From contig DYJD01000011.1 of the NCBI GenBank assembly GCA_020723325.1, forward strand, positions 15,373-79,372: a DNA stretch of 64,000 nt, in the 5' to 3' direction. The position numbers and the translations under genes are program-made. The notes beneath the pieces were generated by a model. That model was not told the DNA's origin. It searched no databases and saw only the letters and a program-made list of their open reading frames with translations. Shown here one piece after another: positions 1 to 59,709 of the stretch. Each line of letters starts with the position of its first letter. Position 1 is the first letter of the stretch. This stretch comes from Desulfosudis oleivorans (GTDB lineage: Bacteria; Desulfobacterota; Desulfobacteria; Desulfobacterales; SURF-7).

Positions 1-369
1 CTTCTGCTAATTCAGTCTCGGCGGTTTCCTCAGTCTGATCAGTCTCAATGGTTTCCAGGTCTTCATCTTCGATTTCCTGAATTTGATCTTCATCGACAGT
101 TTCAAGGTTGTCAATGGTATCCTCGACTTCTGCTAATTCAGTCTCGGCGGTTTCCTCAGTCTGATCAGTCTCAATGGTTTCAAAATCTTCCTCATCGACT
201 TCCTGGATCTGGTCCTCATCCACGATTTCAAGGCTGTCAATGGTTTCCTCGACTTCTGCTAATTCAGTCTCCGCAGTTTGATCAATCTCAATAGTGGTCA
301 TATCTTCTTCATAGACTTCCTGGATTTGGTCCTCATAAACGGTTTCAAGATCGTCTATTAAATCCTGGA
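1..369 (-). repeat. In-frame 126-bp tandem repeats
   Basis: Two near-identical 126-bp units lie at 1-126 and 127-252. A third, diverged unit at 253-369 is 117 bp, nine bases shorter. All lengths are multiples of three, so the frame holds and each full unit encodes 42 residues. A further degenerate unit may lie upstream in the coding direction. The array probably continues beyond the left edge. Confidence 0.9.
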
Positions 370-1063
370 CCTCTTCGATTTCAGATTCCTCAATCTGGTC
401 AATATCTAAAGGAGGCACTTTATTGCTTTTTATAGTATGTTTTTCCCTTTTTTCGGTTTCAGAGCTGTAATTGCTTTCTGATTTATCAATGCCATCAGTC
501 CCTGACTCATAATCGGGTATGTATTTGCTGTCGATGACTTTATTGGATAAGCTTTTTACCAAATCAAAAATTTTTTTAAGCTCATCCTGAGACTCTTTTT
601 CAGGTTTTTTATCAAGATCAGGCAGTATATTGTTCAGCAGACTCAGCACTTCGGAAATTTTTTTTAATGTTGAGCCCTCTCCGGAATGAATAACATCCGC
701 AAAGGAGGAGAGCAGTTGGTTCTTGGCGCTTTCCGACATTTCAAAAACATTGGCAGAAGAAATGGTAATCCCCTCTTTATTCTTACCCTCCTGGTACAAG
801 CGCTTGAGATCGGCGTTGACGGTGGAACGGATGCTGTTGAAATTTTTTCGTTTGGATTTGATAATCTCCATATCGTCGCCAATATCCCAGATGGTTTTAA
901 TCAGGATATCTGAATCAATATGTCTGAGATTCTCAACAGCATCCGGTCTGTTATAGAATCGCCGAATGGCCTGAATGCATTTGTATTTTGGGGCCTGGGT
1001 ATTGCGATAATTCAGTTGTGAGATGGCGAGGTCGATTCCGGCAATGGTAATGGAAGACGTCAA
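1..1063 (-). CDS. Acidic tandem-repeat protein, C-terminal part outside the window
   Basis: An open frame of 354 codons runs off the left edge. It starts with TTG at 1063, placed 5 nt after a strong GAGGAGG ribosome site. I do not recognise the family. Residues 1-200 are non-repetitive and mostly helical-looking, with a Lys-rich middle. From about residue 215 the protein becomes extremely acidic and repetitive, with 42-residue units containing EDQIQEV and TETELAEVE. There is no signal peptide or membrane segment. The repeats resemble a flexible acidic spacer or a binding array. It is divergent from the ParA-like operon, 137 bp away, which suggests a shared module (inference). The TTG start and low-complexity end would make it easy to miss in routine annotation. 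Confidence 0.8.
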   Translation of the reverse strand, partial: MTSSITIAGIDLAISQLNYRNTQAPKYKCIQAIRRFYNRPDAVENLRHIDSDILIKTIWDIGDDMEIIKSKRKNFNSIRSTVNADLKRLYQEGKNKEGITISSANVFEMSESAKNQLLSSFADVIHSGEGSTLKKISEVLSLLNNILPDLDKKPEKESQDELKKIFDLVKSLSNKVIDSKYIPDYESGTDGIDKSESNYSSETEKREKHTIKSNKVPPLDIDQIEESEIEEVQDLIDDLETVYEDQIQEVYEEDMTTIEIDQTAETELAEVEETIDSLEIVDEDQIQEVDEEDFETIETDQTEETAETELAEVEDTIDNLETVDEDQIQEIEDEDLETIETDQTEETAETELAE

Positions 1064-1200
1064 TAGGCCTCCTCAAATATCAGATGCAAAGGAAGAGGGT
1101 TATAATAATGTAAAATTATATCGTATAAATATTCGGTATTCAAGCACTCCCTGCGCACAAGCAACTTTTCAATTGTGTATTTTTATGATAGATTCGCAAC

Positions 1201-1980
1201 ATGTCCAACATGTCGAAAATCATATGCATTGCCAATCAAATAGCAGATACTGGGAAAACCGCTACAGCCGTAAGTTTGGCAGCCTCTTTTGCCTTAATGG
1301 AGAAGTCCACGCTTCTCATTGATTGTGATCCACAGGCGGCAGCAACCCGCTGGCTAGGGCTTGATGAAAAAAAATTAGACCTATCTCTGTATCATGCTTT
1401 TATAGGTCGAGCTTCATTCGCTGATATAATAGTGAGCCACCAAATTCCATGCTTGAGTATTCTGCCCTCTCAAATCGGTCTATTTCAGGTGGAACATCAA
1501 TTGGCTGTAAAACCCGGCAAAGAGATGATCCTGCGAAAACAAGTACAAAAAATTTCCTCATCTTACGATTATATAATTATTGATTCCCCCCCGACTTTGG
1601 GTTTTTTTACAGTCTGCGCCATGGCCTCTGCCGATTTTATGATGATCCCGGTCCGTTATGGGCTTAATGAGACAAGCGCTTTGAACCATCTGCTTGAAGT
1701 TGCCGACATGGTTCGCAATGAGCTTAATCCAGATTTAAAAACAATCGGGAGAATTCTAACTTTTTATGGCGGCCTTACGCATTCTGAACAATGCTTTCCG
1801 GTGAACATAGGAAAGGGAAATACAGGCAAACTGTTTTCAACCACAATCCCCAACGACAGGATTTTTCAAGAGGCTTTTAATAATGGCCGACCGATTCAAC
1901 TCCATGACATCATGGCACGCGGGACACAATCCTATCTGGATCTCGCAGTGGAATTTATCGGCTTAATGGGTGATAACTGA
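1201..1980 (+). CDS. ParA/MinD-like ATPase with a degenerate Walker A motif
   Basis: A 259-residue protein of the ParA/Soj P-loop family, normally used to position DNA or protein cargo on the nucleoid. The fold signature is clear: the strand before the P-loop, LLIDCDPQAAATRWLG (residues 38-53) and Walker B YIIIDSPPTLG near residue 125. The Walker A reads ANQIADTGKTA in place of the usual ANQKGGVGKTT. The GKT nucleotide-binding core is kept, but the signature lysine, both glycines and the last Thr are changed. The signature lysine normally reaches across the dimer to ATP, so ATP sandwich dimerisation may be altered (inference). No ParB gene or parS cluster is visible. It heads a tight operon with the next two genes. 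No good Shine-Dalgarno precedes ATG 1201; ATG 1210 is an alternative. Confidence 0.85.
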   Translation: MSNMSKIICIANQIADTGKTATAVSLAASFALMEKSTLLIDCDPQAAATRWLGLDEKKLDLSLYHAFIGRASFADIIVSHQIPCLSILPSQIGLFQVEHQLAVKPGKEMILRKQVQKISSSYDYIIIDSPPTLGFFTVCAMASADFMMIPVRYGLNETSALNHLLEVADMVRNELNPDLKTIGRILTFYGGLTHSEQCFPVNIGKGNTGKLFSTTIPNDRIFQEAFNNGRPIQLHDIMARGTQSYLDLAVEFIGLMGDN

Positions 1981-2030
1981 TATTGTTGCAGCAGTACCGA
2001 ATAATCGACCAGCAAATAAGGGGAGCCACC

Positions 2031-2435
2031 GTGAAAATTACAAATTCCGAGGTAATAAGGACTGGTGAAAAAGAGTTGATCGATGCAATCACCGGTGATC
2101 TTGATTGGCAAGCCATTGAACAACTATTTCGCGAAAAATATCATCTTGGGCTTCAGGACGAAGTTGAGTACAAAAAGGGCGACATGGTTGTGCACAACAA
2201 TCAGATCGCTTATAAACTAGATTTTGAAGTCAAGGTCACCCTTTCAGTTTTGTTTGACAGAAGAGGTGAATGTCTTGAAGTAACCGCCCTTGATCGTCAT
2301 GCTGACATGGATGCGGAAACACAAAGCCGTGAGAGTGATCTTGATATAATTGTTCCAGATGAACCTGCTAATGAAAATGTGTCTCAAATGGCTTCTCAAA
2401 TAGCCGAGATGATGACTGAGATAAATAAGGACTGA
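2031..2435 (+). CDS. Hypothetical protein between ParA-like and zinc-ribbon genes
   Basis: A 134-residue soluble protein that I do not recognise. GTG 2031 is chosen because GGGAG at 2021-2025 lies 5 nt before it. The frame can be extended to a TTG at 1983, which has no ribosome site. The middle (about residues 40-90) has alternating hydrophobic residues like a beta-sheet (YKLDFEVKVTLSVLFDRRGE). The C-terminus is acidic and helical. It ends 3 bp before the next gene and begins 50 bp after the ParA-like gene, so the three are very likely co-transcribed and may form one complex (inference). Confidence 0.7.
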   Translation: MKITNSEVIRTGEKELIDAITGDLDWQAIEQLFREKYHLGLQDEVEYKKGDMVVHNNQIAYKLDFEVKVTLSVLFDRRGECLEVTALDRHADMDAETQSRESDLDIIVPDEPANENVSQMASQIAEMMTEINKD

Positions 2436-2438
2436 TAA

Positions 2439-3854
2439 ATGGAACCAACGGAAAATGTTGAAACACCCAATGTTCGGGCTCAGTTCGATGAAATTTTGGT
2501 AAAACATATTCGTCGGTTGCTGGAAGTCGAAAGCATCGCCACCTCCTTATCCTTTAACCTTTCATCCATCACTTGTCTATTGTTCTTAGTGGAGCGTGAA
2601 AATGAGATCAAAAATTTTCCAGCCGCTCCACCGAAAAGATATGTTCGTGAAACCTTATTGGATGATTTATCCGACATCGGTCTTGAAATTGATGATGACC
2701 TGATGGTTTCCTTTCAGGCTTTGACCCAGTATGGCTATATTGCTATTCAGGATGATGAGCATTTTCATCCTCAGATTTCAGCCTATGCTCTGGTGGGTTT
2801 TTTAGATAATCTTTTTCCAGGCATGACTGGTTTAAACCTGGTCGGTTTTATTTTGCAGATGATAAAAGAGGTAACGACCAATCGAAAAGAACTAAAAGAT
2901 GCTCTTGAACAGTTTGATCAAACCCTATTTACCCAAGGGATTACTCTTTCAAGACAAAAATTAAAACAAGATGAAAAGGAAGCCCTCAAAGAATGTGTGA
3001 ATAAAACCGCTAAGCCATATGAATCAAAAAAAATATCAGAGGATTTAAAACTGGCTTTTGTTCAGCGTTTAACCAAACTGAGAAAGCGGGAAGATGGGGG
3101 AGGTGCCATCCCAAAAGTTTTTCAAAGCACACGACCGCGCGCTGTTCTGGAAGTGCAGGACCTATTCTCCAAACAACCTGGTGAGTCCATCAATGATTCG
3201 GCTACCTCTATTGACCAAGTAGAAATGGAGGTCGAATCAAAGACCGGTCAGCCTGAAATTCGAGTTGAAAAAGAAGCAGAGCAGATCGCTGCTGAAAAAT
3301 TGGCCATGGAGATTGAAAAAAAAGCAGCCGAACTGGCAGCCCGTGAGTCCGAAATTAAAGCGGCCGAGATAGCCACACGCGAAGCGGAAATCAAGCGTAT
3401 GGAGGCGGAGATCAAAGCGCGCGAAATGGAAATGAGAATGCGCGAGGCTGAACAGCAATTGATGGAAAAAAGAGCGGAATCCTTTCCAGCGGAAACAAAA
3501 TTATCGGATATTGAAAAAAAAATCGAAGCTTTTCAGGAAACCATGGCCATGGGTTGCCCCCTTTGTCATTTGGGAAAAATAAAAATGGAGGAAACCGAAA
3601 AAGGCCGTAAATATTTTTCCTGTTCCAATGAAAATTGTGGATTTATCAGTTGGGGAAAGCCTTATCCTTTTTCTTGCCCTTTATGCAAGAATTCCTTTTT
3701 AATTGAATTTGTCGGCGCTGAGAATCAAATGGGTTTAAAATGCCCGCGAGCTACTTGCTCCTTTTCACAGAATCATTTGGGGCAACCACCCCAGAGTCAG
3801 CCTGATGATAAGATCGGAAAACGGCGGAAGCTGGTGCGTGTTCGAAAGAAATAG
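2439..3854 (+). CDS. Coiled-coil protein with C-terminal zinc ribbons
   Basis: A 471-residue protein with three visible parts. Residues 1-160 look globular and helical. Residues about 265-365 form a long charged coiled coil of repeated AREAEIK/AREMEMR-type heptads. Residues 372-440 hold zinc-ribbon-like pairs: CPLC with CSNENC, then CPLC with CPRATC, similar in spacing to topoisomerase I C-terminal ribbons. The last 20 residues are strongly basic (KRRKLVRVRKK), which suits nucleic-acid contact. I cannot assign a known function. As the last gene after a ParA-like ATPase it could be the DNA- or cargo-binding partner that ParB would normally supply (inference). No catalytic motif is visible. Confidence 0.8.
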   Translation: MEPTENVETPNVRAQFDEILVKHIRRLLEVESIATSLSFNLSSITCLLFLVERENEIKNFPAAPPKRYVRETLLDDLSDIGLEIDDDLMVSFQALTQYGYIAIQDDEHFHPQISAYALVGFLDNLFPGMTGLNLVGFILQMIKEVTTNRKELKDALEQFDQTLFTQGITLSRQKLKQDEKEALKECVNKTAKPYESKKISEDLKLAFVQRLTKLRKREDGGGAIPKVFQSTRPRAVLEVQDLFSKQPGESINDSATSIDQVEMEVESKTGQPEIRVEKEAEQIAAEKLAMEIEKKAAELAARESEIKAAEIATREAEIKRMEAEIKAREMEMRMREAEQQLMEKRAESFPAETKLSDIEKKIEAFQETMAMGCPLCHLGKIKMEETEKGRKYFSCSNENCGFISWGKPYPFSCPLCKNSFLIEFVGAENQMGLKCPRATCSFSQNHLGQPPQSQPDDKIGKRRKLVRVRKK

Positions 3855-4388: not shown

Positions 4389-4408
4389 AAATGACCATGT
4401 GGTCATTT
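4389..4408. promoter_or_regulatory. Perfect 20-bp palindrome, candidate operator
   Basis: AAATGACCATGTGGTCATTT is two perfect 9-bp arms around TG. It sits immediately downstream of the TATAAG box and covers the expected transcription start and the first codons of mqnE. That position suits a repressor site. The regulator is unknown; the TetR gene of the mqnBD operon is one candidate. Confidence 0.55.
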
Positions 4409-5533
4409 TCTGAAAAGATGATGGATTTTCCGCTTTCCGATAGTCGGCTGCAGACGATAAAAGAAAAGGTGCTGCAAGGACGAAGATTGGATCAAGATGA
4501 TGGGGTGCTTCTATACCAGAGCAAAGATCTGCTCGGTAAGGGAAAACTTGCGGATTTTGTACGAAAAAAGCGGCATGGGCGCAAAGCTTTTTTTATATAT
4601 AATCAGCATGTCAATTATACGAATGTGTGCACCAACCAATGCCTTTTTTGCGCCTTTTCGAAAGATAGCGGGGATGAGAATTCTTTTACTCTATCCATGG
4701 ATCAAATCAGAGACAAACTCCATGAACGCATAAATGAGCCCATTCGGGAATTGCATGTGGTGGGTGGAATCAACCCGGCTCTCCCTTTTTCATATTATAT
4801 GGATCTCCTTCGGACCATTAAAACTGTGCGCCCTAATGCAACCATAAAAGCCTTCACAGCCGTTGAAATTGATCATTTTGCTAGAATTTCAGGTCTTACA
4901 GTTGAGGGGGTATTCAAGGAGTTAATGGCGGCAGGCCTGGCAATGATGCCTGGTGGAGGTGCCGAAGTGATGAGCCAGAGAGTAAGGCAGACCTTATTCC
5001 CTCAAAAAATTGGGAAAGAGCGCTGGATGGAGGTGATTGAAAAGGCCCATGCCTGTGGATTGTCGACCAATGCCACCATGCTGTACGGGCATGTGGAAAC
5101 CCTGGAGGAACGAGTTGCTCATCTTATCAGTCTGCGGGAGCTTCAGGATCGCAGTCACGGGTTTTCGGCTTTCATTCCTCTGGCTTTCCATTCCCAAAAT
5201 ACGACTCTGTCCCATTTGCCGCGTACCACCGCTTTTGATGATTTAAGCAACATTGTGGCGGCACGTTTAATGTTGGATAATTTTGACCATATTAAAGCCT
5301 ATTGGGTCATGATCGGGGAAAGGTTGGCACAAATCGCACTTTCATTTGGGGCTGATGATTTGGATGGGACCATAATTGAGGAAAAAATTACGCATATGGC
5401 CGGAGCAACCTCGGCCAAGGGGATGTCACGGGAACAAATGCGCTCTTTAATTTCCGATGCGGGCTTTGATCCAATGGAGCGGGATTCTTTTTATCAAATT
5501 GTGGATGAATCGGGGCAAAATGGAGTTGGATAA
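4391..5533 (+). CDS. mqnE: Aminodeoxyfutalosine synthase
   Basis: Radical SAM enzyme of the futalosine route. It joins 3-[(1-carboxyvinyl)oxy]benzoate to SAM-derived adenosine to give aminodeoxyfutalosine. About 380 residues, the usual length. The cluster motif CTNQCLFC lies in NYTNVCTNQCLFCAFSKD (about residues 76-93), followed by ELHVVGGINP and IKAFTAVEI, typical of MqnE rather than MqnC. It heads mqnE-mqnC-mqnX-mqnA and overlaps mqnC by 14 bp. The start is uncertain: ATG 4391 has no ribosome site and lies in a palindrome next to a TATAAG box. ATG 4397 or 4421 are realistic alternatives and cost no domain sequence. Confidence 0.93.
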   Translation: MTMWSFSEKMMDFPLSDSRLQTIKEKVLQGRRLDQDDGVLLYQSKDLLGKGKLADFVRKKRHGRKAFFIYNQHVNYTNVCTNQCLFCAFSKDSGDENSFTLSMDQIRDKLHERINEPIRELHVVGGINPALPFSYYMDLLRTIKTVRPNATIKAFTAVEIDHFARISGLTVEGVFKELMAAGLAMMPGGGAEVMSQRVRQTLFPQKIGKERWMEVIEKAHACGLSTNATMLYGHVETLEERVAHLISLRELQDRSHGFSAFIPLAFHSQNTTLSHLPRTTAFDDLSNIVAARLMLDNFDHIKAYWVMIGERLAQIALSFGADDLDGTIIEEKITHMAGATSAKGMSREQMRSLISDAGFDPMERDSFYQIVDESGQNGVG

Positions 5534-6590
5534 AAAACTTATCCAAAAAATCACCGCAGGCAAACGTATTGATGCTGATGAAGCGCTATATTTGCTGCAG
5601 GAAGCTGAATTGCTGGATTTGGGGGCTTTGGCTCATAACAAAAGGATGCGCCTGCACCCGGAAGCAGCCGTTACATTTGTGATTGATCGAAACATTAATT
5701 ATACCAATATCTGCCTATCCGGATGCGATTTCTGCGCTTTCTATCGTGAACCAAACCAGACCGAAGGTTATTTGATCACCAAAGCCGAGCTTGAAAAAAA
5801 AATCTCGGAAACATTGGCATTGGGAGGAACGCAGATCTTGCTGCAGGGTGGGCTGAATCCTGATTTGACTCTGGATGACTATTTGGATTTACTGCTTTTT
5901 ATTAAAGAACGGTTTCGGATTCACATTCATGGTTTTTCACCGCCGGAGATTTTGTTCATGGCAAACCAGTCCGGGCGTTCCATCCATGAAGTGTTGTCCG
6001 AATTGATAGAGGCGGGTTTGGACTCGATTCCAGGCGGAGGGGCAGAGATTCTCGTGGATGAAATCCGTTCTAAAATTTCACCCAATAAGTTCAGAGCAGA
6101 TGAATGGTTACAAGTAATGGAAGTCGCCCATGGACTGGGATTAAGAACAACCGCCACCATGATGTTCGGTCACATCGAGCAGCCGGTTCATATCATTGAG
6201 CATCTTGTAAAGATTCGAAAACTGCAAGATCAAACAGGAGGGTTCACAGCCTTTATTCCCTGGACCTTTCAGCCCAATAAAACACGGATAACTGTAAAAC
6301 CCGCTTCCTCTGTCATGTATTTGCGGGTATTGGCCCTGTCCCGTCTGGTGTTGGATAATGTGCCTAATTTACAGGCCTCATGGGTAACACAAGGGGATAA
6401 GGTCGCCCAGTTGGCCCTTGCCTTTGGAGCCAATGATCTCGGCAGCACCATGATTGAAGAAAATGTCGTGGCTGCAACCGGTGTAAGCTTTACTTTACCC
6501 CAAACGGAAATGGTTCGGCTGATTCAGGATGCCGGGTACGAGGCTCGTCAAAGGGATTGTTTTTATAATATCATCAGGGTTTTAAATTGA
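5520..6590 (+). CDS. mqnC: Cyclic dehypoxanthine futalosine synthase
   Basis: Radical SAM enzyme that cyclises dehypoxanthine futalosine. 356 residues from ATG 5520. The frame is open further upstream to 5457, but that would overlap mqnE by 77 bp and add 21 residues unlike the family. The cluster motif is CLSGCDFC within NYTNICLSGCDFCAF. ILLQGGLNPDLTLDDYLDL and HIHGFSPPEI distinguish MqnC from MqnE, its paralogue directly upstream. Stop and next start are fused (TGATG at 6588-6592), so translation of mqnX is probably coupled. Confidence 0.94.
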   Translation: MELDKKLIQKITAGKRIDADEALYLLQEAELLDLGALAHNKRMRLHPEAAVTFVIDRNINYTNICLSGCDFCAFYREPNQTEGYLITKAELEKKISETLALGGTQILLQGGLNPDLTLDDYLDLLLFIKERFRIHIHGFSPPEILFMANQSGRSIHEVLSELIEAGLDSIPGGGAEILVDEIRSKISPNKFRADEWLQVMEVAHGLGLRTTATMMFGHIEQPVHIIEHLVKIRKLQDQTGGFTAFIPWTFQPNKTRITVKPASSVMYLRVLALSRLVLDNVPNLQASWVTQGDKVAQLALAFGANDLGSTMIEENVVAATGVSFTLPQTEMVRLIQDAGYEARQRDCFYNIIRVLN

Positions 6591-7834
6591 TGACCGATCA
6601 GCAATTATCTGATATCCCTTATATAGGGCGGGTCACAGGAGTATCTATTGCCGGCCCCATGGCCCATCGCGCAGGATGGGTATTGGTGGATTCAAACACT
6701 GCCCTTGAAAACGGATATATCGTTATTGAAAATGAAAAAATTGCCGCCATCGGTCAAGGCAAGACGCCCAGCGACATTCAGACAATGGATCATGGCCCGG
6801 GTGTGTTGATGCCACCGCTGGTAAATGCTCACACTCATTTGGAACTATCAGCCCTACAAGGGAAAATTGACTGTGCTGGCGGATTCAGATTTTGGGTGCG
6901 GGAGCTTATCCGGCAACGGGAAGCCCTCGATTCCGGCACCATTTGCAAAGGAGCACAAGAAGGGGCTCGCATGCTGCATGAAAGTGGCTGCGGTTTGGTT
7001 GGTGAAATATCAACCCTTGGATTGAGCCGGGATATATTCAGGGAAGCACAATTCAGCGGTATCTGGTTCCAAGAATTGATTGGAAATCCCACAGAAGTGG
7101 ATTCGATTGAAATATCAGAAGGATTCACCTCAGATAAAGCTTTTTCCCTGGCAGGTCATGGACCCCATACCACCGCGCCTCAACGGCTGATTCAATTAAA
7201 AGAAAGCACGCTGAATGCAAAATTACCCTTTTCCATTCATGTGGCTGAATCTGAAGATGAAATCCTTTTCATCAATACAGGCAAGGGACCCTGGGCTGAT
7301 TTGCTCAAAGAGCGGAATATTAATTTCAGTGACTGGCCCATCAAAGGGAAGACTCCGGTCCAATACCTATCGGAAATCGGCTTGCTGGATGAGAAAACCC
7401 TTGCTGTTCATCTGATAACAGCCGAAAAAAATGATTTGGCCTTGCTTCAAAAGGCAAAAGTGAATGTTTGCCTTTGTTTGAGAAGCAACCAAACTCTGCA
7501 TGGCAGATTGCCGGATGTGGAAAAAATGCAACAATACGCTTTGAATCTTTGTTTGGGTACGGATAGTCTTGCCAGTGTTGACAGCCTTAATATTTTTAAA
7601 GAAATGGTTTTTCTGGCTGACAAGTTTCCAGGTTTGTCGCCCAATAACATTCTGAAAATGGCAACCTACAATGGCGCTGTAGCATTGGGCCTGGCTGATC
7701 ACTTTGGAACCATCGAGCCGGGCAAATCCGGTAAGTTGCTCTATATTCCTGTGCAAGCAGGCCGGGCCGAGCAATTGTATACGAAAATTGTTCATGCGGA
7801 CTTTAAAAACGAGATACATTTTATTCATCAATAA
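6590..7834 (+). CDS. mqnX: Aminofutalosine deaminase (amidohydrolase family)
   Basis: A 414-residue amidohydrolase that should convert aminodeoxyfutalosine to futalosine. This is needed because the downstream nucleosidase here is the futalosine-specific MqnB. Metal-site motifs are visible: NAHTHLEL (about residue 82), a later His in HVAES, and the catalytic Asp in CLGTDSLAS (about residue 325). The C-terminal IEPGKSGKLLYI is the usual end of the beta-sandwich. ATG 6590 overlaps the mqnC stop; an in-frame TTG at 6587 is less likely. The family also contains chlorohydrolases and guanine/adenosine deaminases, but the operon position makes the assignment strong. Confidence 0.88.
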   Translation: MTDQQLSDIPYIGRVTGVSIAGPMAHRAGWVLVDSNTALENGYIVIENEKIAAIGQGKTPSDIQTMDHGPGVLMPPLVNAHTHLELSALQGKIDCAGGFRFWVRELIRQREALDSGTICKGAQEGARMLHESGCGLVGEISTLGLSRDIFREAQFSGIWFQELIGNPTEVDSIEISEGFTSDKAFSLAGHGPHTTAPQRLIQLKESTLNAKLPFSIHVAESEDEILFINTGKGPWADLLKERNINFSDWPIKGKTPVQYLSEIGLLDEKTLAVHLITAEKNDLALLQKAKVNVCLCLRSNQTLHGRLPDVEKMQQYALNLCLGTDSLASVDSLNIFKEMVFLADKFPGLSPNNILKMATYNGAVALGLADHFGTIEPGKSGKLLYIPVQAGRAEQLYTKIVHADFKNEIHFIHQ

Positions 7835-7898
7835 GAAAAACAGGCAGCTTAAAGGATTACTTAATATAAAGCGATACTTTAATAAATGGCAATAATAT

Positions 7899-8837
7899 AT
7901 GAAATTTTTAGATAATATTTCTTCATCGATTCGAATCGGAAGAATCCGCTATTTTAATGTGGCGCCGGTGTATTACGGCTTTGACCAAGGAATGAAATGG
8001 GAAAATATTGAATGGGTGCAAGGGTCTCCAGCAGTGTTGAATCGTTTGATGGCGACTGGGGCCATTGATATCAGTCCTGTTTCTTCAGCAGCTTATGCTG
8101 AATATCAAGATCGTTGGATGTTGTTGCCGGATCTTTCCATCTCCAGTTTCGGCAAGGTCATGAGTGTTCTTTTGGTCAGCCGCCATCCCATGCACTTGTT
8201 GAGCGGCAAAAAGGTGTGTATAACGGATGAGTCCGCTTCGGCTGCTGCTTTATTGAAACTGATATTGGCCCATCATCAAGTAGAGCCTGAATACTCAATC
8301 AGTGAAATTCCCGGACCGGATGAACTCGACCCCAGTATTGCCGGATTTTTAGTCATTGGTGACAAAGCCATGAAAACCAAGTGGCATCGATATTTCCCCT
8401 TTGTTTTGGATTTGGGAGAAATATGGCGACAAATTAGCGGATTACCTTTTGTTTATGCGGTTTGGGCGATTCGCAAGCAGTTTGCAGAGGAGCGACCTGA
8501 CGTTGTTTCTGAAATCCATGCTGCTTTCTTACGTTCAAAAATCCAAGGTCTTGCTTCCATTCCCGCCATCTGTAAACGTGTTTCCCAATACACCGGACTC
8601 CCAGTGGATTTATTACAGAATTATTACCGACAACTGTTATTTGATTTTGATTCAAACAAGAAACTTGGGCTTCAATTGTTTTATGATCATTTATTCAACC
8701 ATGGTTTGATTCGACAGCCGGTTCAGCCATCGTTTTTTGAACCACAAGTTCCCAAGGTGATCTATGTTGAATCTTTCAAGCGAATAAAAAACAGCAGGGA
8801 GTCAGTTGATAAAAAGCGGCTTGCCCAAGGCAGGTAA
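7899..8837 (+). CDS. mqnA: Chorismate dehydratase
   Basis: A 312-residue periplasmic-binding-protein-like enzyme that dehydrates chorismate to 3-[(1-carboxyvinyl)oxy]benzoate, the first step of the futalosine pathway. Family signs are RIGRIRYFNVAPVYYGF at residues 12-28, DISPVSSAAYAEY and LPFVYAVWAI. Unlike transport binding proteins it has no signal peptide, so it is cytoplasmic. It lies 64 bp after mqnX and is the last plus gene of the cluster. Its 3' end overlaps the 3' end of mqnD on the other strand by 36 bp, an unusual tail-to-tail overlap that adds a basic C-terminal tail. Confidence 0.92.
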   Translation: MKFLDNISSSIRIGRIRYFNVAPVYYGFDQGMKWENIEWVQGSPAVLNRLMATGAIDISPVSSAAYAEYQDRWMLLPDLSISSFGKVMSVLLVSRHPMHLLSGKKVCITDESASAAALLKLILAHHQVEPEYSISEIPGPDELDPSIAGFLVIGDKAMKTKWHRYFPFVLDLGEIWRQISGLPFVYAVWAIRKQFAEERPDVVSEIHAAFLRSKIQGLASIPAICKRVSQYTGLPVDLLQNYYRQLLFDFDSNKKLGLQLFYDHLFNHGLIRQPVQPSFFEPQVPKVIYVESFKRIKNSRESVDKKRLAQGR

Positions 8838-59188: not shown

Positions 59189-59356
59189 GTTGCGGCGTAA
59201 ATTAGCTAAATAATATTTTGACCATACGAGTATTTTGGTATGGATTTTAAAGGCATAAATAGGAAAACCTTCTAACTTTCTCCTTTTCTTTTGGGGAAAG
59301 GCTTGGGGAAAGTCGAAGGCTTTTAAAGGTAAAAAATTGAAATTTTTAATAAAAAT

Positions 59357-59709
59357 GGTGGAGGCGGCGGGAGTTGAACCCGCGTCCGAAGACATTCCAC
59401 ACTGGCATCTACATGCTTATCCTGAAATCTGAAATTCGCCGGTTCAAGTCTCCATCAGGCAGGATGCTTGAACGGCTAGCCTATGGGAATCTCATCAACC
59501 TTGAAACAGGCATTCGAGGTTGACCAGCCTGCGGAGTCGACGTTCCATCCGGATCTGCAGGCATGACCCGGGAGAACGTTGGCCAGCTTACGCGGCCAAG
59601 GCGTAGTTATAATCGTCTGCGATTATGTTTAATTCCGCCCTTTTACGAGTTGACGGAACTCGGCATGCAACCAGAGCTTCTTTATCCCCGTCGAAGCCGT
59701 TTCGCCCCC
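59357..59709 (-). ncRNA. ssrA: tmRNA
   Basis: 353 nt on the minus strand. The 5' end GGGGGCGAAACGGCTTCGAC pairs with the 3' end CGCCTCCACCA as an Ala-tRNA-like acceptor with G·U at the third pair. GGTTCAACTCCCG is the T-arm. The resume codon is GCA at 59618-59620 after TAATC. The tag frame (59588-59620) reads ADDYNYALAA and stops with TAA. This tag form is common in Deltaproteobacteria. smpB lies just upstream on the same strand. The genome copy encodes CCA. Confidence 0.97.

Follow-up and report, generated by a model that had tools for sequence, protein, structure and literature searches.

The genes at the start of the window (the 64,000-nucleotide stretch of Desulfosudis oleivorans DNA that we analysed) may encode a nucleoid-associated, non-catalytic complex, a reading to which we assign a probability of about 0.45. 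Its core would consist of pseudo-TopA, a descendant of topoisomerase I, and a partner that combines a wHTH-like domain, an acidic neck and an FGE-fold domain, and in many lineages a ParA-family ATPase would distribute the complex. The function given here is a proposal. No description of the group, of inactive TopA homologues, of a link between FGE, ParA and topoisomerase or of DUF4388 combined with ribbons was found in the open-licence literature, among the matches listed. The features of the locus are as follows; L004 denotes the same contig, on which 15373 is window position 1.

L004:14090-15372, minus strand, beside the window: remainder of the repeat protein, with further repeats and the FGE-fold domain
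1..403, minus strand: acidic 42-residue repeats (TRF period 126 bp over L004:15373-15651, which is window 1-279; a second TRF row, period 117, extends to 403)
2..1063, minus strand: first 354 residues of the repeat protein (wHTH-like domain, helical part, acidic repeats)
539..1063, minus strand: RepN, the conserved N-terminal domain of the repeat protein, 175 residues modelled, helical with a beta hairpin, wHTH-like
1064..1200: divergent intergenic region of 137 bp between the ParA and repeat protein genes
1201..1980, plus strand: ParA-family ATPase, 259 residues (PF13614 AAA_31, 7.9e-44)
1983-2435, plus strand: open reading frame of the Small protein, with a likely start at 2031 that gives 134 residues
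2439..3854, plus strand: pseudo-TopA, an inactivated topoisomerase I derivative, 471 residues
2598..2930, plus strand: TopA core remnant, pseudo-TopA residues 54-164, aligned to residues 450-559 of the same genome's genuine TopA
3555..3758, plus strand: two C4 zinc ribbons related to the TopA C-terminal ribbons (29% identity, E 5.4e-7 against the C-terminal part of the genuine TopA)
3804..3851, plus strand: conserved basic C-terminal tail, net charge +7 over the last 16 residues

The four reading frames lie where the original prediction had placed them, and the 42-residue acidic repeat (period 126 bp, 88% matches) and the two C4 ribbons and basic tail of the 471-residue protein were also borne out. 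What had been called a coiled coil in that protein is a run of charged residues, highly variable among relatives. The repeat protein begins at position 1063 of the minus strand and leaves the window at base 2; when the adjoining part of the contig is read as well, the whole protein has 781 residues (L004:14090-16435, minus strand), with a stretch of unknown bases within its repeats.

Profile comparisons and a set of longer relatives show that pseudo-TopA is a descendant of topoisomerase I. When a profile of 12 family members was searched against the PDB, 10 distinct sequences had E values below 1e-4 (best 5.1e-6) and 12 had E values of 0.001 or less, and all of these were topoisomerase I. Alignment of the family to 13 genuine TopAs by hhalign gave 99.2%, with an E value of 2.2e-19 that applies to one comparison only. 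Three long forms (L135, L136 and L138) match TIGR01051 at 5e-32, 1e-32 and 1e-28 over most of the TopA model, with scores far under its equivalog cut-off; all three exceed the cut-off of PF01131, and two of the three exceed that of PF01396. On its own, the window protein matched neither a Pfam topoisomerase family nor PF01396 at E <=1, and in it a weaker resemblance (5.1 bits) to the VEREREI segment of TopA directly precedes the core remnant. Among the results named in advance as evidence against the original idea was a closer resemblance of the zinc protein to some known, unrelated family; a known family, TopA, does match it better, yet TopA points towards DNA. Sub-threshold matches of the ribbons to rubredoxin-like and GRF domains were superseded by TopA.

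The sequences show that pseudo-TopA lacks the tyrosine and TOPRIM residues required for DNA cutting. A genuine TopA is encoded elsewhere in the same genome (784.5 bits). The tyrosine motif [TS]YMRTD[SN] is present in 13 of 13 genuine TopAs and in none of the three long forms, and a complete DxDxE, SAGRVQS or GRPSTY is likewise kept in none of the three. At the TOPRIM DxDxE position the long forms read DGEER, DVDQR and DSDQH, and in some the first E survives, as does a portion of the set. The window form has no TOPRIM domain, and the region of the tyrosine motif falls outside its aligned part; it has lost the catalytic part and retains the core remnant, the two C4 ribbons and the basic tail. 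Because SAGRVQS and GRPSTY, which we take to be DNA-contacting motifs of the TopA core, are missing along with the catalytic motifs, any DNA binding could be credited only to the ribbons and the tail. These two elements are strongly conserved: all eight ribbon cysteines are present in each of the 43 distinct relatives scored, and the tail has a charge of +6 to +13 in 44 of 44 rows (43 distinct), whether ParA is present or not. Long forms thus differ from TopA in lacking the catalytic Tyr motif and a complete DxDxE, and the window form in lacking both regions. YrdD of Enterobacteriaceae also carries TopA-type C4 ribbons without a catalytic core and is reported to bind ssDNA (PMC4678816); compared by description only, it differs in having four ribbons, and the portion of that source available to us mentions neither a core remnant nor conserved partners.

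A search of the neighbourhoods of the zinc protein's N-terminal part supported the expectation that the genes form a conserved unit. Among 40 relatives in the order, 12 had a total of 13 matches, 12 of which adjoin Small and the repeat protein, 11 of them with ParA as well. The other 28 relatives had no match to the N-terminal part, so the unit is patchy, and within the same family code this N-terminal part was found in 5 of 12 genomes; three members of that family (G003, G005 and G006) have Small without pseudo-TopA. Across 395 genomes of the phylum, RepN occurs in 17, pseudo-TopA (E <=3.5e-10) in 18 and both in 17, the pair being spread over 9 family codes. The gene group is conserved in relatives of sulfate-reducing bacteria, often with a ParA-type ATPase, and ParA and Small form a patchy layer upon the core pair. 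One cultivated carrier is Desulfobotulus alkaliphilus (L079). Overproduction of inactive topoisomerase I is reported to be lethal in E. coli in the text available of PMC9352719, and it is therefore surprising that at least 9 family codes within a single phylum have retained a dead TopA. This retention suggests that the topoisomerase I scaffold has been put to regulatory use. As to other classes, none of five sequences had a PADLOC match at E 0.01, which led us to reject an anti-phage defence system, and a mobile element was rejected on the grounds that pseudo-TopA had no match (E 1e-5) in 72,556 plasmid and 50,697 phage records and RepN had none in viral contigs.

For the accessory genes we surveyed 68 loci, a non-random set made up of the 13 first relatives, 23 named loci, 20 from a Small search and 12 from a RepN search. 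The named loci were 23 of 30, seven that repeated earlier contigs having been dropped, and the 20 Small-search stretches were chosen so that second copies and families were represented. One contig appears twice, as L085 and L132, which reduces 68 loci to 67 distinct ones, 41 ParAs to 40 and 44 tails to 43. A further comparison of identities used 21 loci, two of them on the same contig.

In 41 of the 68 surveyed loci, Small has a ParA no more than two genes away. This association is an argument for an alternative in which ParA and Small are the engine of cargo positioning of the McdAB kind, with the pseudo-TopA/FGE pair as one of the cargoes, perhaps in the form of an acid-base condensate. Ten of the 41 loci, some of which end at a contig edge, have no recognisable pseudo-TopA or repeat protein, and ATPases of this sort are reported to have highly diverse partners that contact them through short charged peptides (PMC10241942, as far as the text was available). 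We nevertheless consider this alternative unlikely. The core pair persists without a recognised ParA in L023, L076, L086, L090, L107, L128-130 and L135-138, where absence refers to the flanks read, and these loci include several distant families. Where ParA is present, its signature lysine is kept in 27 of the 41 loci and missing in 14, the window locus among them: the window P-loop reads QIADTGKT, as against the canonical KGGxGKT, with Ile in place of the signature lysine, and does not fit the deviant Walker A pattern KGGxxK[ST]. The starred branches of a quick tree force at least four changes of the lysine label, for which the tree gives no direction, and in L088 and L094 Arg also replaces the P-loop lysine. 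McdA is itself listed with SGGQGKT (PMC9178275, in the part available), so that a missing signature lysine is no proof of a dead ParA. Nonetheless, the patchy loss of the lysine or of the entire gene and the persistence of the pair count against the original placing of ParA at the centre of the system. The ParA of L028 was verified with a profile from which it had been excluded (5.6e-23). We discarded the notion that ParA is the fastest-evolving member, as its mean identity of 31.1% equals that of the pseudo-TopA N-terminal part (30.9%; 21 loci).

The locus resembles ParA/MinD systems such as ParABS, McdAB and ParC/PpfA in having a ParA-family ATPase and an adjoining small, partner-like gene, but differs from them in that its conserved pair persists without ParA, the window has no parS-like site and ParB is found only elsewhere. 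No 16-mer resembling the parS consensus occurs in the window with up to two mismatches. In this genome, one ParB above the family cut-off is encoded on another contig and a weak ParB match lies on the same contig outside the window.

The likely start of Small is the GTG at 2031, based on conservation and on a AAGGGGAG site ahead of it, and the longest frame runs from 1983. The protein has a conserved domain of about 86 residues, an acidic linker and a C-terminal helix, MASQIAEMMTEIN. The helix was found in 28 of 40 Smalls beside ParA and in 1 of 13 without it (Fisher 1.8e-4), a correlation with too few independent pairs to be tested, the starred branches giving one. This test left out L073, L082, L083 and L087, which have no ParA and fewer than 700 bases upstream of Small; L076 and L098 have Small without ParA and still carry the helix or a close variant. 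The window Small has no Pfam or NCBIfam family above cut-off and no sequence match to a known partner protein, its profile had a best E of 1.8 against the PDB, and structure comparison of its model (mean pLDDT 75.5) gave no useful match. CBM_5_12 was its commonest Pfam match, in only 6 of 50 alignment members (best 0.00044), and was taken as chance.

The second member of the core pair, the repeat protein, ends beyond the window edge in an FGE-sulfatase domain (2.4e-48) that is nearly full length and whose best PDB match is SUMF2 (1.5e-36), which we take to be a non-catalytic FGE paralogue. It differs from FGE and SUMF2 in being without the catalytic Cys pair and in its fusion to an acidic neck and a wHTH-like domain. 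At the catalytic Cys positions, which we assume from human FGE and placed by its alignment, none of the 21 scored domains has Cys in the first place and a single one has it in the second; a further 11 of 32 domains, truncated ones included, did not fit the pattern and were left unscored. The FGE domain is the best conserved part of the group, with a mean identity of 50% against 31-41% for the others (21 loci). The necks are 30-66% D/E in 26 rows, with approximate bounds, and the protein is presumably cytoplasmic.

The AF2 model of RepN (mean pLDDT 85.6) may have a wHTH-like fold: OmpR/PhoB-type DNA-binding domains or regulators make up 18 of its 20 best VIA rows, the best of which (Z 6.8, rmsd 3.0, 84 aligned) is under the Z that the tool calls safe. 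Such a fold, together with the conservation of the FGE domain despite its lost catalytic Cys pair, would suit a role in transcription control, in which the repeat protein is a one-component sensor with a wHTH-like DNA reader and an FGE-fold ligand head and pseudo-TopA is an accessory of RNA polymerase or promoter melting. The C-terminal domains of E. coli topoisomerase I are reported to interact with RNA polymerase (PMC4678816 and PMC9352719, in the portions available). This role also seems improbable, as RepN has no significant sequence or Foldseek match to a regulator (none by Foldseek at E <=0.001, no Pfam winged-helix match, a best profile E of 0.017 against the PDB, and for the window RepN no Pfam or NCBIfam family above cut-off), and an acidic neck would be expected to disfavour DNA binding by the same chain. 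ENCP4, the commonest Pfam match of RepN, was found in only 6 of 36 alignment members (best E 0.0099) and was taken as chance.

We return to a nucleoid-associated complex of pseudo-TopA and the repeat/FGE protein. The original prediction had offered a nucleoid role as one option; that part is likely because the zinc protein derives from topoisomerase I, and the ParA-centred part is not upheld. Pseudo-TopA, which by its sequence would be unable to cut DNA, retains TopA-type ribbons and the basic tail, and TopA ribbons are reported to bind ssDNA (PMC4678816, available in part). We infer that the ribbons and the tail anchor it to DNA that is single-stranded, negatively supercoiled or being transcribed, or alternatively to RNA polymerase; there it would compete with or sense topoisomerase I and would not relax DNA. 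Inactive topoisomerase I or its CTD, overproduced in E. coli, is said to act as such a competitor in the text available of PMC9352719. Pseudo-TopA would work with the repeat/FGE protein, with which it co-occurs and which it may contact; the acidic neck could pair with the basic tail, and the FGE-fold head would bind a ligand or protein. Small could be an adaptor whose C-terminal helix contacts ParA, and ParA, where still active, may spread or position the complex on the nucleoid. With a degenerate ParA, or with none, the core would function without active positioning. An otherwise so-called orphan ParA thereby gains cargo candidates. In a more daring and rather doubtful form of the proposal, the dead TopA would be a natural dominant-negative topoisomerase I that sits on negatively supercoiled DNA or on transcribed DNA prone to R-loops; the acidic partner would sequester the basic tail, the ligand of the FGE head would act as a gate, local supercoiling would be protected, and an intact ParA would distribute the complexes over the nucleoid.

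In the same genome, the C-terminus of a PATAN (DUF4388) protein shares 52% identity with pseudo-TopA residues 357-466. Elsewhere, the pseudo-TopA N-terminal domain is fused to HDOD (L029), a PilZ protein lies ahead of pseudo-TopA (L129), and Small paralogues follow a receiver/NMT1-like protein, without ParA, in L091, L106 and L108. With such partners, a role in signalling or polarity (c-di-GMP, chemosensory or surface motility), with the zinc ribbon and basic tail as a shared docking tag, would also fit. We think it quite unlikely, as each of these partners was observed in some lineages only, as against the repeat/FGE pairing in 17 of 18 genomes. Finally, the missing catalytic residues of two proteins and the degenerate ParA motif at many loci could be those of a functionless, decaying relic, a reading made highly improbable by the conservation of the eight ribbon cysteines (43 of 43) and of the FGE domain and by the near-perfect co-occurrence of the pair.

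The original prediction had placed a ParA ATPase, a small protein and a zinc-ribbon protein beside a divergent protein with acidic repeats, and a reading-frame check of the window bore out these open reading frames as real. In this 7.2 Mb draft genome (window at contig C89:15373-79372), the ParA has 259 amino acids and the zinc protein 471; the small protein (Small) has 134 when read from its probable start at 2031. The repeat protein, transcribed away from these three, reaches 781 amino acids when completed from contig sequence adjoining the window, and is laid out as follows:

Repeat protein, N- to C-terminus: N-terminal domain (RepN); acidic repeats (the neck), period 126 bp; formylglycine-generating-enzyme (FGE)-sulfatase domain (PF03781, 2.4e-48).

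Sequence evidence identifies the zinc protein as an inactivated topoisomerase I (pseudo-TopA). Its distant relatives L135, L136 and L138 (the long forms), which start like TopA, gave the clue to this identity. They score 5e-32, 1e-32 and 1e-28 with TIGR01051 and pass the PF01131 cut-off, but fall far short of the equivalog threshold curated for TopA. In the PDB, a profile made from the short family matched 10 distinct sequences at <1e-4 and 12 at <=0.001, all topoisomerase I, and hhalign with 13 genuine TopAs gave 99.2% across residues 54-164 of the window protein. Motif columns contained the tyrosine motif in 13/13 genuine TopAs and 0/3 long forms; complete DxDxE, SAGRVQS and GRPSTY were absent from all three long forms. 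L136 and L138 retain both aspartates and the first glutamate of DxDxE, so in these two the decay is partial. L203, a further long form that is interrupted in its assembly, also lacks the tyrosine motif when read by eye, and the window pseudo-TopA has wholly lost its catalytic regions. The same genome encodes a separate genuine TopA (784.5 bits). It also encodes a PATAN (DUF4388) protein (L005:7053-7955, minus strand) with pseudo-TopA-like zinc ribbons and basic tail; this ribbon/tail part is 52% identical to pseudo-TopA, and the protein is matched in 39/40 relatives, mostly via the PATAN part, DUF4388-type matches being common.

The core of the module is the pair of pseudo-TopA and the repeat/FGE protein. 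Among 395 genomes of the phylum, RepN was found in 17, pseudo-TopA (E <= 3.5e-10) in 18 and both in 17, as judged from two separate searches with the same genome handles among the matches listed; the 17 genomes represent 9 family codes and are related, so that these counts are not independent. The single genome with pseudo-TopA and no RepN, G040, has a contig end nearby. Upstream of its pseudo-TopA (L202:9944-10309, minus strand) lies a different acidic repeat protein with DPLGGLPDVSEMT repeats, and the Small of L107 ends in similar repeats. The same pseudo-TopA search gave weaker matches in 63 further genomes, and the 12 that were aligned are all genuine TopAs with the tyrosine motif. Outside the window's class, the pair occurs in four families (f88, f129, f131, f142) with flanks in which neither ParA nor Small is recognisable; all four genes are present in f104, and f109 has the pair on two separate short contigs. 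We put the probability that the pseudo-TopA identity and the core pair both hold at roughly 0.95.

The module as a whole is a conserved yet patchy unit. When 40 relatives were searched with the first 230 residues of the zinc protein, 12 genomes yielded 13 matches. Of these matches, 12 are module loci that also carry Small and RepN, with ParA in between at 11 of them (none at L023); the thirteenth (L029) is a pseudo-TopA N-domain fused to HDOD. Small is present in 160/389 genomes of the window's class; its 30 named loci are from MAGs, 27 with Desulfo- or Deltaproteobacteria in their titles and 2 with Pseudomonadota or Proteobacteria, and from one isolate, Desulfobotulus alkaliphilus. The survey took in 68 loci (67 distinct), which do not form a random sample and in which contig ends shorten some gene sets. 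Its commonest set was ParA, Small, pseudo-TopA, RepN and FGE (20 loci); ParA with Small alone accounted for 10 and Small alone for 10.

In the module, ParA is a layer that can be missing and is often degenerate. Its signature lysine is kept at 27/41 loci and missing at 14, the full KGGxGK occurs at 19, and in two ParAs Arg stands in place of the P-loop lysine. A quick tree built from the other module proteins has 17 of its 40 inner branches starred; these require at least 4 switches in the label "ParA without signature lysine" and at least 3 in "no ParA", the tree giving no direction. Because an excerpt of PMC9178275 lists McdA with SGGQGKT, a missing signature lysine does not by itself prove the window ParA inactive.

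Small looks like an adaptor in which a domain of 86 residues leads through an acidic linker to a C-terminal helix (modelled at low confidence). The helix pattern occurs in 28/40 Small proteins beside ParA vs 1/13 without it (Fisher 1.8e-4), the independent pairs on the tree being too few to test this association; a looser pattern adds three with ParA and one without (L098). Small paralogues with a different tail come after a fusion of a response-regulator receiver and an NMT1-like protein at L091:9379-11468, L106:7747-10002 and L108:8017-9983, the last with ABC-transporter-like genes alongside, by eye. PilZ-domain proteins adjoin pseudo-TopA (L129:11119-11475, minus strand) and lie near a tandem Small protein (L101:10034-10465, plus strand).

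Within the module, the FGE domain, which matches SUMF2 best, is the most highly conserved part. Among 21 scored copies, Cys was found at the first catalytic position in none and at the second in one. The RepN model (pLDDT 85.6) has OmpR/PhoB-type domains or regulators as 18 of its best 20 VIA rows (Z <= 6.8), a suggestive resemblance only. The neck is 30-66% D/E in 26 rows (bounds approximate), and the pseudo-TopA tail carries a charge of +6 to +13 in 44/44 rows, whether or not ParA is present; acid-base contact between them would be the simplest reading. That a non-catalytic pseudo-TopA on DNA, its repeat/FGE partner, and ParA distribution via Small together make up a nucleoid complex is a tentative proposal, to which we give slightly less than an even chance. 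Since overproduced dead TopoI or its CTD is a competitor in E. coli, according to an excerpt of PMC9352719, a competitor reading of pseudo-TopA is testable.

Downstream of the module (window 4391-8837) are two radical-SAM mqn-type genes, of the futalosine menaquinone pathway, and their neighbours. Among 33 loci with 6 kb of sequence on both sides, mqn-type genes recur nearby at 12, XerC at 12 and the thioesterase at 10; an old neighbourhood is therefore common in part to module loci. Elsewhere on the contig, outside the window, a 327-aa frame has a weak ParB-like match under the family cut-off (G000:C89:128891-129202). Inside the window, a tmRNA gene with the tag ADDYNYALAA lies at 59356-59709.
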